Shown here one piece after another: positions 2,126-9,352 of a stretch of DNA of 64,000 bases. The position numbers and the translations under genes were made by a program. The stretch's first letter is position 1, and every line of letters begins with the position of its first letter. The notes beneath the pieces are model-generated. The model ran no database searches, was not told the DNA's origin, and worked only from the letters and a program-made list of their open reading frames with translations. The DNA is from Methylomonas sp. (lineage in GTDB: Bacteria > Pseudomonadota > Gammaproteobacteria > Methylococcales > Methylomonadaceae): assembly GCA_026989395.1 (NCBI GenBank), contig JALSJK010000072.1, positions 1 to 64,000 of the forward strand, written 5' to 3'.

Positions 2126-2545
2126 TTAGTAGTTTTTTACGAAAAAAGTAAGAAAGAATGTAGATATAGCGTTCAGTAGTCGGCAATCAGTTTTGAATAA
2201 TTGTAACCACTCGGCGTATTTATAGTTTCAATATCAGCAACTTATTCCAGAAGACGCCGTAAATACGTCCGTGTAGGCTTGATTGTGTTATTCATGATAC
2301 ATTCACTATACACTTTACACTTCTTCCATAAGCCACTGATATTTAATAATTTAAGTTAAATTGAATATGCTGAATAGAGTTTCGATTAATTCATTGGTTT
2401 TTCAAAAATTAAAAAACATGGTCATTTGTTCAGTTTCAAAATCAAATTTGGTTTTTTTAATATTATCTGTACCATAAATCTTACAGCTAATGTTTATTGT
2501 TAAGGCGTTCGCCAAAAAAAAATTTCAGTATGGTTTGGAGCATTG
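2126..2545. other. 420-bp gap between xoxF and the ECF sigma gene
   Basis: No open reading frame with coding character was found. The stretch 2208-2270 holds an imperfect inverted repeat (CGGCGTATTTAT near 2213 against GACGCCGTAAATACG near 2255), probably a small dispersed intergenic repeat. A T-rich run follows the xoxF stop on the minus strand (the A-run ending at 2522) without a convincing stem. The sigma-gene promoter must lie near 2126-2230, but no clear -35/-10 pair stands out. Confidence 0.4.
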
Positions 2546-4429
2546 TTAATCTGGTAATGCAAAAACAGAGAAAACTCCGCCGAGTTTTGTATAGGATGAC
2601 AAACTCCGATATGCCCCGGCGGCGCCTAATGCACAATTATCACAATCTTTATCGATATTGGCATCAGCTATAGCCAATCCTGCCCAGCCTCCTATGCCAG
2701 AATAAATTCCAACATATTGTTTGTTTTTGTATTTCCAAGTGCTTATGTTGCCAATAATGCCTGACGGGGTCTTAAAATGAAACAACTCCTTCCCCGTTTT
2801 AGCATCTATTGCTTTGAGATAACCCTCTAGGGTGCCATAAAACACAATACCGCCTGCAGTTGCTACTGAGCCGGACCAAACAGAAAAGGGTTCTTTTATG
2901 CTCCAGATAATTTTACCTGTTGCAGGGTTCCAAGCGGTAAATTGACCAAGATTTGTTGATTTATCCGGTTGTCCTGTTATGGCGTCAATGCCAGCAGGAA
3001 ACATCCTGACTGTTGCCCCTACATAGGGCTGTCCAGCAGAATATTCGACTTCAAAAGGTTCATAGTCCATACATACATGGTTTGCAGAAATATAAATCAG
3101 ACCTGTCTGTGGCGAGTAGGAAACCGGTTGCTGATTTTTACTTCCTAAGGCAGCAGGGCAAATACCTTCAGTGGTGGTATCTTCACCATTATATTCAGTA
3201 CTGTATTTAGGAACCACGTGAGGACGACCGGATTGCATATCTATATGAGTTGCCCAGTTAACCGCATGATCAAATTTTTCAGCCAGAAGTAGTTCTCCTG
3301 TCTCTCTGTCAAGGACATAGCCAAATCCATTTCGATCGAGGTGAACAAGGGTTTTTCGTTTACGACCATTGATTTTTTGGTCAATCAAGACCATTTCATT
3401 GATGCCATCATAGTCCCATTCATCATGGGGAGTCATTTGGTAAACCCATTTAACTTTACCTGTGTCAACATTTCTGGCCCAGATACTCATAGACCACTTA
3501 TTGTCTCCAGGACGTTGAACAGGATTCCATGTGCTTGGATTTCCAGATCCATAATACATTAGCTTAAGATCAGGGTCGTAGCTGTACCAACCCCAGGTTG
3601 TTCCTCCTCCGATTTTCCATTGATCCCCTTGCCAGGTATTTAAGCTGGAATTTTTCCCAACTATTGTGGTTTTTCCTTTTTCCCAGGTGGTTGTTTTTTT
3701 TGGGTCAATTAGCATATCTTCATCTGGCCCCATGCTGTATCCTTTCCAAACCAGATGGCCATCATTAATATCGTAGGCAGCAATAAAACCTCTGACACCA
3801 AATTCACCACCAGAAATGCCGGTAATCACTTTGTTGTTCATAACAACGGGAGCTTGAGTATTGGTGGCGCCCATTTTAAGGTCGCCATTTTTTACTCGCC
3901 AAATAACCCGATCTTCTTGAGTTATTTTATGATCGCTGTTACGGTCAGAAATGATTTTGTTTGCGTCGAGAGCAACTAATGTTGTATCAGCCTGTTGCAA
4001 GAATATTTTCCCCTCGGCGTAAGCAAGGCCGCGATTGACTGTATCACAACACATAATGGCAACTGTAGAATCAGCATCCTGATTTGGTTTATATTCCCAA
4101 ATAATACTTCGAGTTTTTTGGTCGATAGCATAAACAATATTCGGAAATGGTGTGTGAATATAGATAACATCATTGACAATAAGTGGCCCACCTTCATGCC
4201 CTCTTAGAACACCCGTCGAGAATGTCCAAGCTAGCTTAAGATCTTTTACGTTATTTGTATTAATCTGGTCTAATTTACTATAGCGGGTACCAGCATAATT
4301 TCCACCCCAAATGGCCCAGTTACTTGGGTTTGATATTTTTTCCTGCAAATTGGTGTTTGCAAAAATAGATTGTGAAAATAGAGCAATTAACAATAGACTT
4401 TGTGATTTATTTTTTTTTGTAGTAAACAT
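2546..4429 (-). CDS. xoxF: PQQ-dependent methanol dehydrogenase, lanthanide (XoxF) type
   Basis: A 627-residue periplasmic quinoprotein that oxidises methanol and passes electrons to a cytochrome c. A signal peptide covers about residues 1-24 (cleavage near IFA-NTN). The body is the PQQ beta-propeller: RGHEGGPL, the vicinal Cys pair C127-C128, [13 protein letters not shown] (274-286) and [11 protein letters not shown] (335-345). D339 is the likely catalytic base, and the extra Asp D341 is the residue that marks XoxF rather than MxaF and helps bind a lanthanide. Overall it resembles the XoxF5 clade. Two local oddities stand out: an insertion with an EF-hand-like loop at 162-173, and a CDNC pair at 596-599 in an Asp-rich stretch. 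An RBS (AAGGGA) lies 7 bp before the ATG. No cytochrome or xoxJ gene is adjacent, so it stands alone on a segment bracketed by transposase copies. Confidence 0.92.
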
Positions 4430-6549: not shown

Positions 6550-6722
6550 GGGTCAAGTCTTTATTTTTGCATAGCATTATGTAAGATTTTGCTGACCTCT
6601 GAATAATGTAATGAGTGATAACTGCCTATTTCTGCCAACGTATATCCTCCACTCCGATTAGCCATGACAACAGACTCATTCCTATCTTTTGCTAATTTCG
6701 TATATTCCTTCAGCGTTTTAGA
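6550..6722 (-). mobile_element. Decayed third transposase copy (3' end only)
   Basis: About 173 bp match the left end and gene 3' end of the complete copy (5044-5217) with scattered substitutions. The match starts in the left inverted repeat and ends where the serS downstream region begins. The frame from 6722 to the stop at 6561 gives KTLKEYTKLAKDRNESVVM and on to NAMQK, the transposase C-terminal helix-turn-helix. It is older than the other two copies. The longer open frame running to 6845 is a chimera with antisense serS sequence. Confidence 0.85.
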
Positions 6723-6750
6723 AACAAGCTTGGTAGTTACAAAATATTTA

Positions 6751-8025
6751 TTAAGAAATACTGCCCATCCCTCCCATATAAGCCACCAAGACTTCCGGCA
6801 CAGTAATGCTGCCATCTTCATTCTGATAATTTTCCATAATTGCAATTAAAGTTCGCCCCGCAGCCAGACCAGAACCATTCAAGGTATGTACTAATTCCGG
6901 CTTTCCTGTTTCTGAATTACGCCAGCGGGCTTGTAAACGCCGCGCCTGAAAGTCCTTGAAATTGCTGCAAGACGAAATTTCCCGATAAGTATTCTGACTG
7001 GGTAGCCAAACTTCAAGATCGTAGGTTTTACTGGATGAAAACCCGGTATCCCCAGAACAAAGCAATACTTTTCGATAGGGAAGTTGCAGTTTTTTTAGAA
7101 TATTCTCCGCATGGCTCGTTAAATCTTCATGTGCCTGCACAGAATTTTCCGGTTTGACAATTTGCACCAGTTCGACTTTTTCAAATTGATGCTGCCTGAT
7201 CATCCCTCTGACATCCTTGCCATAAGCGCCTGCCTCACTTCTAAAGCAAGGAGTATGACAAACAAATTTTAAAGGCATTTCGTTGCTATCAACAATAACA
7301 TCCCTGACAATATTGGTTACTGGAACTTCAGCCGTTGGTATCAAGAAAAAAGCGGGATCGTTTTCAACTTTAAATAAATCCTGCTCAAACTTGGGGAGCT
7401 GTCCCGTTCCGTACAAGGAATCTGAATTCGCCAAATACGGCACATAAGTTTCACTATAGCCATGTTCGGTAATATGGGTATCCAGCATGAATTGAATGAT
7501 CGCTCGCTGTAATCTGGCCAATGCTCCTTTTAACACCACAAATCTGGCGCTGGCGATTTTTGCGCCCAATTCAAAATCCATGCCTTGGCACTGCGTCCCT
7601 AAATCGACATGATCCTTAACCGGAAATGAAAACTCTGGCTTTTCGCCCCATGTGGAAATTTCAATATTATCTTCTTCATTTTTCCCTTCCGGTACCTCTT
7701 CATCCAGAAAATTAGGAATTCCCGTCATCAGCTCATTAATTTTGGCCTGAATTTCACCCAGTTCAGTTTCAGCAGCTTTTAACTGATCACCCAAATTTTG
7801 CACTTCATCCAACAAAGGTTGAATATCTTCGCCTTTCGCTTTAGCCTGACCAATCGCTTTTGAACGCGTGTTCCTTTCATTTTGCAGTTCCTGAGTCTTG
7901 ACCTGAATCTCTTTCCGACGAGCTTCCAATGTTTGATAAGTACCGGCGTCAAAATCAAAACCGCGCCTGGCTAATTGTTGTTGCACATATTCCAGATCAG
8001 ATCTGAATAAACAGGGGTCTAACAT
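6751..8025 (-). CDS. serS: Seryl-tRNA synthetase
   Basis: A 424-residue class II aminoacyl-tRNA synthetase that charges tRNA-Ser and feeds tRNA-Sec where present. The N-terminal coiled-coil arm lies at about residues 27-105 ([20 protein letters not shown]...). Motif 2 is in [21 protein letters not shown], and motif 3 is [18 protein letters not shown] near the end. It is the last gene of an orn-crcB-serS run on the minus strand. Its stop lies 28 bp from a decayed transposase fragment, and the tail (YMGGMGSIS) may have been shaped by that event, though all catalytic motifs are intact. Confidence 0.95.
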
Positions 8026-8089: not shown

Positions 8090-8797
8090 TTAAATTTTTC
8101 TGCCCAACCATAACCCAAACCAGATAACTGAGGCACAAATAATGGTATTACTCAGAAACACGCTCAGCAACACCGGAGTGTGGAGCCTTAAGGAATGCCC
8201 ATCTTCCAGCAAATAAAGTATTAAATATAATCCAGACAAGGTGATAAAAATCCCAGTCAAGAGGATAATGCCGGCAACCCGGTGTTCTAGCACTACATCT
8301 ACCTTATTGAACAAAATTGCCATCACCAAGCCAATGATGAAAGAACCAATGGCGTTCACCGTCATTAAGCCATAAGGAATAACCCACCCCATCCAACGAA
8401 TGGTACCACTGGAAAACAGAAACAAAATCCGACCACATTGCAACCCTATCCAGACGGCAATCAAACAAGCACTAACACTCACCAGAATATTTAATAAAGC
8501 TTTCTGGAAATTACCTTGCTCCAGTAAAAACAAAGTTTCCAGGGAAAATGTTGAAAAAGTCGTAAATGATCCAAACAACCCAACCAGAACGGCGGCTCTA
8601 TATTCCTGAGAAATAGCAACTCGCTGTAAAATCAACGCTTCAGTCATCAGGCCGATTAATAATGAGCCCATCACATTAACAGCTAATGTGCCATAGGGAA
8701 ATCCCCGCCCTAACCATTGATAAACACCGGTTGAAACAAAAAAACGCAGTACTGCGCCAAATGCACCACCCAATGCAATTGCAAATACCTGGTTCAT
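8090..8797 (-). CDS. crcB: Fused two-domain CrcB/Fluc fluoride channel
   Basis: CrcB/Fluc proteins are small four-helix membrane proteins (about 125 residues) that pair head-to-tail to export fluoride. This gene encodes 235 residues. Residues 1-127 form a normal domain: GGAFGAVLRF, PYGTLAVNVMGSLLIG and the core motif GSFTTFSTFSLE. Residues about 128-235 repeat the fold (IPYGLMTVNAIGSFIIG, then LLTGIFITLSGLYLIL) but have lost the TTFSTF residues. The fourth helix of the first half aligns with the first helix of the second (CGRILFLFSSG), so the chain has about seven helices and the second half should insert upside down. Orn lies 9 bp upstream. No fluoride riboswitch was seen. Confidence 0.85.
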   Translation of the reverse strand: MNQVFAIALGGAFGAVLRFFVSTGVYQWLGRGFPYGTLAVNVMGSLLIGLMTEALILQRVAISQEYRAAVLVGLFGSFTTFSTFSLETLFLLEQGNFQKALLNILVSVSACLIAVWIGLQCGRILFLFSSGTIRWMGWVIPYGLMTVNAIGSFIIGLVMAILFNKVDVVLEHRVAGIILLTGIFITLSGLYLILYLLEDGHSLRLHTPVLLSVFLSNTIICASVIWFGLWLGRKI

Positions 8798-8806
8798 AAT
8801 TTTGTA

Positions 8807-9352
8807 TTAATACTTGATGAAATGTTCCCGATAATATTTAAGTTCATCAATGGATTCAATGACATCATCCAAAGCCTGATGGCTGGCCCGTTTGTGGAAG
8901 CCTTTTTGAATCTCTGGCGCCCAACGTGCCGCTAATTCCTTTAATGTTGAAACATCCAAATTCCGATAATGAAAAAAAGCTTCCAGTTTTGGCATATAGC
9001 GATATAAAAACCGCCGATCCTGGCAAATACTGTTGCCACACATGGGGGATTTTCCTTCTGGAACCCATTTTTGTAAAAAATCCAGGGTTTGCTGTTCCGC
9101 TTCGGCATCATCAACTGTAGTTTTCTTGACCCTGTCAATCAATCCTGATTGCCCATGATGTTTTTGATTCCAATTATCCATCGCCGCCATCACAGAATCT
9201 TCCTGGTGAACGGCCAAAACTGGACCTTCCGCCAAAATATGCAAATCCTTGTCCGTCACTACCGTTGCAATCTCAATAATAAAATCATTATCAGGGTCCA
9301 AACCGGTCATTTCCAAATCAATCCAAATCAGATTACGTGAATCCAGCGTCAT
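8807..9352 (-). CDS. orn: Oligoribonuclease
   Basis: A 181-residue DEDDh 3'-5' exonuclease that degrades oligoribonucleotides of 2-5 nt, including the pGpG made from cyclic-di-GMP. Motifs: WIDLEMTGL (Exo I, Asp and Glu), NSICQDRRF (Exo II) and [10 protein letters not shown] (Exo III, with His and Asp). The length is standard. It is the first gene of the orn-crcB-serS minus-strand group and lies back to back with the Ste24-type protease gene. The link to c-di-GMP turnover is notable, since the window encodes a diguanylate cyclase. Confidence 0.95.

Follow-up and report, generated by a model that had tools for sequence, protein, structure and literature searches.

This locus raises the question of how a bacterial gene that encodes two CrcB domains on one chain would make a fluoride channel: by pairing of the two halves within the chain, or by pairing of one half with that of another chain. 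The gene lies in a stretch of 64,000 nucleotides from the methane-oxidising bacterium Methylomonas sp. that was analysed as a whole (here called the window). The first-pass annotation of this DNA had proposed two CrcB domains on a single chain, and the open reading frame is indeed present, with both halves matching CrcB profiles. The gene, its two halves (D1 and D2) and its neighbours are as follows.

8090..8797, reverse strand: fused crcB gene, 235 aa, seven predicted TM helices (ORF; AF2 model with mean pLDDT 78)
8423..8797, reverse strand: D1, complete Fluc subunit, residues 1-125, TM1-TM4, with the TM3 break at residues 79-80 (PF02537, NF010791, model compared with 5nkq_C)
8381..8422, reverse strand: junction, residues 126-139, from the end of D1 TM4 to the TM1-TM2 loop of the second copy (hhalign; D2 starts at CrcB column 24)
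8093..8380, reverse strand: D2, CrcB copy without TM1, residues 140-235, TM2', TM3' and TM4' (PF02537, hhalign, purifying selection)
8546..8563, reverse strand: TTFSTF motif of D1, residues 79-84, with F81 and F84 (invariant, 103/103 fused proteins)
8675..8677, reverse strand: pore Asn of D1, N41, in PxGTxxxN (invariant)
8228..8245, reverse strand: D2 counterpart of TTFSTF, ITLSGL, residues 185-190, Leu at both Phe positions (hhalign alignment; survey of 103 sequences)
8354..8356, reverse strand: D2 counterpart of the pore Asn, N148 (Asn in 69/103)
8807..9352, reverse strand: upstream neighbour, oligoribonuclease-like ORF, 9 bp from crcB (ORF list; named by sequence recognition)
6751..8025, reverse strand: downstream neighbour, seryl-tRNA synthetase-like ORF (ORF list; named by sequence recognition)

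A chance ORF, a frameshift and an assembly artefact can be ruled out, since the same frame is kept in 103 distinct sequences and the dN/dS, where computable, is 0.02-0.23 in D1 and D2 alike. Thirteen more full-length fused relatives were found at 56-95% identity. A search of the genome for CrcB recovered the fused gene only, and neither the window nor the genome yielded a fluoride riboswitch. Elsewhere in the window, a transposase-like ORF (MARPLRIEFAGALYHITSRGN...) is located at window:5054-5893(-), and a short ORF at 6561-6845(-), next to the serS-like gene at its 3' end, has a tail that approximately repeats the C-terminus of that protein and is apparently a remnant. The genome also encodes a CLC-type protein (L190:1224-2525(-)), which contains GSGIP; at the position of the gating-glutamate motif found in many CLCs it reads GFGGP.

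D1 is matched in profile searches by PF02537 at 6e-32 (110.5 bits, curated cut-off 32.9) and by NF010791 at 6.7e-43 (146 bits, cut-off 129). Both pore motifs, TTFSTF and PxGTxxxN, are located in D1 and are invariant across the relatives. Of the residues central to Fluc, D1 also retains all those that never vary among single-domain CrcBs (G10, G11, G14, R18, T37, N41, G73, G76, T79, T80, F81, S82 and F84); of these, F81, F84, N41 and T37 are each found in 103/103 fused proteins. The dN/dS of this half is 0.02-0.09. The AF2 model gives D1 the four-helix fold with a broken TM3 (helices 64-78 and 81-93), and this part of the model aligns to 5nkq_C with a Z-score of 18.6 and an rmsd of 1.3 over 123 residues. 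The chain as a whole, at 235 aa and with a second CrcB copy, falls outside the length of single-domain proteins (~120-130 aa).

D2 spans residues ~128-235, after the complete D1 at 1-125. Residues 106-235 alone match NF010791 (9e-10) and PF02537 (1.4e-4) in profile searches, and residues 127-235 alone match PF02537 (7.8e-5). When 14 second halves were compared with 15 single CrcBs, hhalign gave a probability of 99.5% (P = 5.6e-23), and the second halves of a diverged family of the order, f4, also match CrcB (98.4%, 5.4e-15). The profile alignment of the second half to CrcB, on which the recognition of a second domain hinged, thus succeeds. The second domain had also been described as sharing a helix with the first; the domain is there, but no helix is shared at the sequence level. 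The hhalign match begins at CrcB position 24, past TM1, so that D2 begins after TM1, which it has lost, and the preceding helix is TM4 of D1 itself. This joining helix has the TM4 signature N103, S107, C111, W116 and G118, which is also seen in single CrcBs, and lacks the TM1 motif GGxxGxxxR. The junction in related genes, LYPWLGHGFPY, resembles the D1 TM1-TM2 loop, VYQWLGRGFPY, and the repetition is near word for word in f4. Taken at the level of sequence, the crcB identity, the fusion and the loss of TM1 are established.

The fusion was also sought elsewhere in the Methylococcales, as the first-pass annotation had suggested, and it recurs in most of the order, where the fused form is the sole fluoride-channel gene. 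The 103 distinct intact fused genes encode proteins of 225-240 aa and, by their record names, all come from this one order; among the records that carry a name are Methylomonas, Methylococcaceae and a methanotrophic symbiont of Bathymodiolus. CrcB matches were obtained in 286 of the 311 genomes of the order and none in the other 25, and the families f2 and f8 contain only single CrcBs of 123-124 aa. No full-length fusion was found outside the order in a class sample of 369 genomes and a phylum sample of 249, although this survey of ~600 genomes is a sample and not a census, and the profile used would miss unrelated fusions. D2 has been lost from three genomes that branch within the fused clade (fork support 99/95). 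It is wholly gone in G040 (133 aa) and G182 (118 aa), while part of it is left in G024 (160 aa), and all three retain TTFSxF. The loci with this whole or partial loss of D2 are L084, L140 and L158. Another related genome, G298, contains two complete fused crcB genes that face each other (L087:1486-2187(+) and 2484-3188(-)).

The two Phe of each Fluc pore come from different subunits, one contributing its first Phe and the other its second (PMC4969038, PMC5417652). When one Phe per pore is removed from Ec2, no flux can be measured (PMC4969038), and transport is abolished when the Phe positions receive aliphatic residues such as Ile, Leu or Ala (PMC5636608). The loss of TTFSTF from the second half, noted in the first reading of the sequence, is borne out: D2 reads ITLSGL, with L187 and L190. 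The accompanying claim that only one pore site would be complete is not supported: with F81 and F84 both in D1, the two pores of an internal D1:D2 pair would each contain a single Phe, and neither would be complete. Among the 103 fused proteins, position 187 is Leu in 54, Phe in 15, Gly in 12, Ala in 12 and Val in 7, and position 190 is Leu in 82 and Phe in 6; in the 15 proteins with F187, this residue would complete one internal pore, on the D1 side. The minimum number of changes on the D1 tree is 26 at position 187 and 11 at position 190, and zero at F81 and F84.

The dN/dS of D2 is 0.04-0.23, about two to three times the value of D1, which indicates purifying selection. S188 (86/103), G182, N217 and mostly N148 are kept in D2, while in f4 the pore Asn and the motif of D2 are gone. 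D2 is not a junk sequence. That the fused protein no longer conducts fluoride would be in line with the missing motif in D2 and with the riboswitch not being found in the genome, but it is highly improbable given that D1 is fully conserved, at its low dN/dS, and that the fused gene is the only crcB of the genome.

The helices in the AF2 model are at 2-29, 35-57, 64-78 with 81-93, 97-127, 142-165, 170-198 and 207-234, and TM3' of D2 is continuous, as opposed to the broken TM3 of D1. An odd number of helices, here seven, would place D2 upside down relative to D1. The earlier expectation of an inverted second half agrees with this count, from which the topology itself is predicted. Modelling with the 14 fused sequences gave a pLDDT of 57, and adding 14 single CrcBs raised it to 78. 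The D1-D2 arrangement in the model is unreliable (pTM 0.58), and since only 14 fused rows inform D2, the arrangement was not used as strong evidence. Against the FEX chain 9op1_C, the best alignment is limited to residues 1-128 of the model (Z 9.8), and the Foldseek alignment to 9op1 over both halves has an rmsd of 20 A, both of which should be read with the uncertain domain arrangement in mind.

If inverted, D2 could serve as the antiparallel partner of D1 in a single-chain pseudo-dimer, with one Phe per pore or with stand-in residues, and thus be FEX-like in principle. We regard this as possible but rather unlikely. It would agree with the odd helix count that sets D2 inverted, with the retention of S188, G182, N217 and mostly N148, with the persistence of D2 across the order under purifying selection, and with Phe 187 in 15/103 proteins, in whose species the D1-side pore would be complete; against this, both Phe positions of D2 are Leu in the present protein, and such changes abolish Fluc activity (PMC5636608). 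Furthermore, D2 lacks TM1, a helix that contributes to the D2-side pore in the FEX model (PMC5417652), three relatives have lost D2, and the AF2 model, with its uncertain domain arrangement, did not align to FEX over both domains. The invariance of F81 is also left unexplained: in an internal pair F81 would serve the D2-side pore only, yet it is invariant even in the f4 sequences.

The explanation that we favour, with a probability of roughly 55%, is that the working pore is formed by the D1 halves of two oppositely inserted chains, and that D2 is a non-conducting appendage. Two crcB copies would have been fused with loss of the first TM helix of the second copy, giving a seven-helix chain in which D1 is a complete Fluc subunit in the normal orientation and D2 is what remains of a second, three helices in inverted orientation. 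The D1 of one chain would pair with the D1 of an oppositely inserted chain, as in the homodimeric, double-barrelled Fluc, so that each pore would combine the F81 of one chain with the F84 of its partner, while D2 may be retained for stability, insertion or packing. The invariance of F81 and F84, the drift of D2 and its loss in three relatives fit such pairing across chains. The match of the modelled D1 to single Fluc subunits (Z 18.6) and the restriction of the FEX 9op1 alignment to D1 also appear to favour pairing between D1 halves. Evidence on the other side is that D2 is under purifying selection (dN/dS 0.04-0.23), that F187 is present in 15/103 proteins, and that the modelled domain arrangement is weak (pTM 0.58). 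In addition, traits of the TM3 crossing (S188, G182) persist in D2, as does the TM2 Asn except in f4, and D2 might therefore still pair with D1.

Pairing of D1 with D1 requires insertion in both directions. The K/R bias is -1.8 +/- 1.5 in the fused chains and 0.1 +/- 0.5 in the single CrcBs. A near-zero bias is necessary for dual insertion and is what the fused chains have; it is not decisive, and it is also compatible with a passive internal pseudo-dimer. Both kinds of pair might even coexist, with D1:D1 pairs conducting and D2:D2 or D1:D2 contacts making a larger assembly; the near-balanced charges permit either insertion and the two halves are each conserved, but the loss of D2 is tolerated, and we consider such an assembly improbable.

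A single origin of the fusion is likely from the D1 tree, in which two fused sequences (L032 and L043) are placed, without support, outside both main fused groups. The simplest history would be a tandem crcB pair in which a deletion took the first stop codon and TM1 of the second copy. It is possible that the history of the fused gene includes an early FEX-like stage that was later given up in many lineages.

Compared with the homodimeric Fluc/CrcB proteins (Ec2, Bpe; PDB 5a43, 5nkq), D1 is a full member in sequence and fold, with the TM3 break, TTFSTF, PxGTxxxN and the polar-track helix in common. However, these proteins stop after TM4, at ~124 aa, while the fused protein adds a CrcB copy without TM1 for a total of 7 TM helices. 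The eukaryotic FEX proteins (PMC5417652, PDB 9op1) also have two CrcB domains per chain, one of which is degenerate and the second of which is expected to be inverted. They differ in having an extra linker helix and 9 TM helices, where the fused crcB has lost a helix and contains 7 TM helices and no linker helix, and in having one Phe per domain, which meet in one complete pore, whereas D1 has both and D2 none. Heterodimeric pairs, such as La1/La2 in Lactobacillus, similarly consist of two diverged CrcB copies, but these are separate genes that keep three of the four Phe (PMC5636608); the fused crcB is a single gene that keeps only two, both of them in the same domain. Fixed-topology heterodimeric Flucs are encoded by two separate genes, and this genome has one crcB. 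The engineered concatemers (Laf-TM, WT/WT; PMC3755343, PMC4969038) share the antiparallel design on a single chain but depend on a foreign glycophorin helix. A concatemer mutant with both Phe replaced in the same domain, which resembles the fused crcB protein, was biochemically intractable and hence untestable (PMC3755343, PMC4969038). The predicted protein is neither an ordinary Fluc nor a FEX.

The fused Flucs of eukaryotes captured a linker helix (PMC3755343), and fusing dual-topology proteins with four TM helices has been said to need an added helix (PMC3755343, PMC9574504). Dual-topology proteins with an even helix count have been called evolutionarily frustrated (PMC3962082). In a literature search with most subscription journals outside its reach, we found no published report of a bacterial fused Fluc or of CrcB in the Methylococcales. 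That the protein is a natural single-chain inverted-repeat Fluc, in which the even-helix problem was solved by deletion of a helix and which conducts with one Phe per pore, is a doubtful proposal; if true, the chain would be the natural counterpart of the double Phe mutant with both changes in one domain, which could not be tested in vitro. The evolution of membrane proteins poses the standing question of how upright and inverted halves come to be joined in a single chain, and this bacterial order shows an alternative route to fusion, by which one helix is lost rather than added. The stages are preserved within the order, from a single copy, to a fusion with a recognisable D2, to a fusion with a decayed D2, and to the loss of D2. 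The fused proteins are natural material for asking whether each Fluc pore truly needs both phenylalanines.
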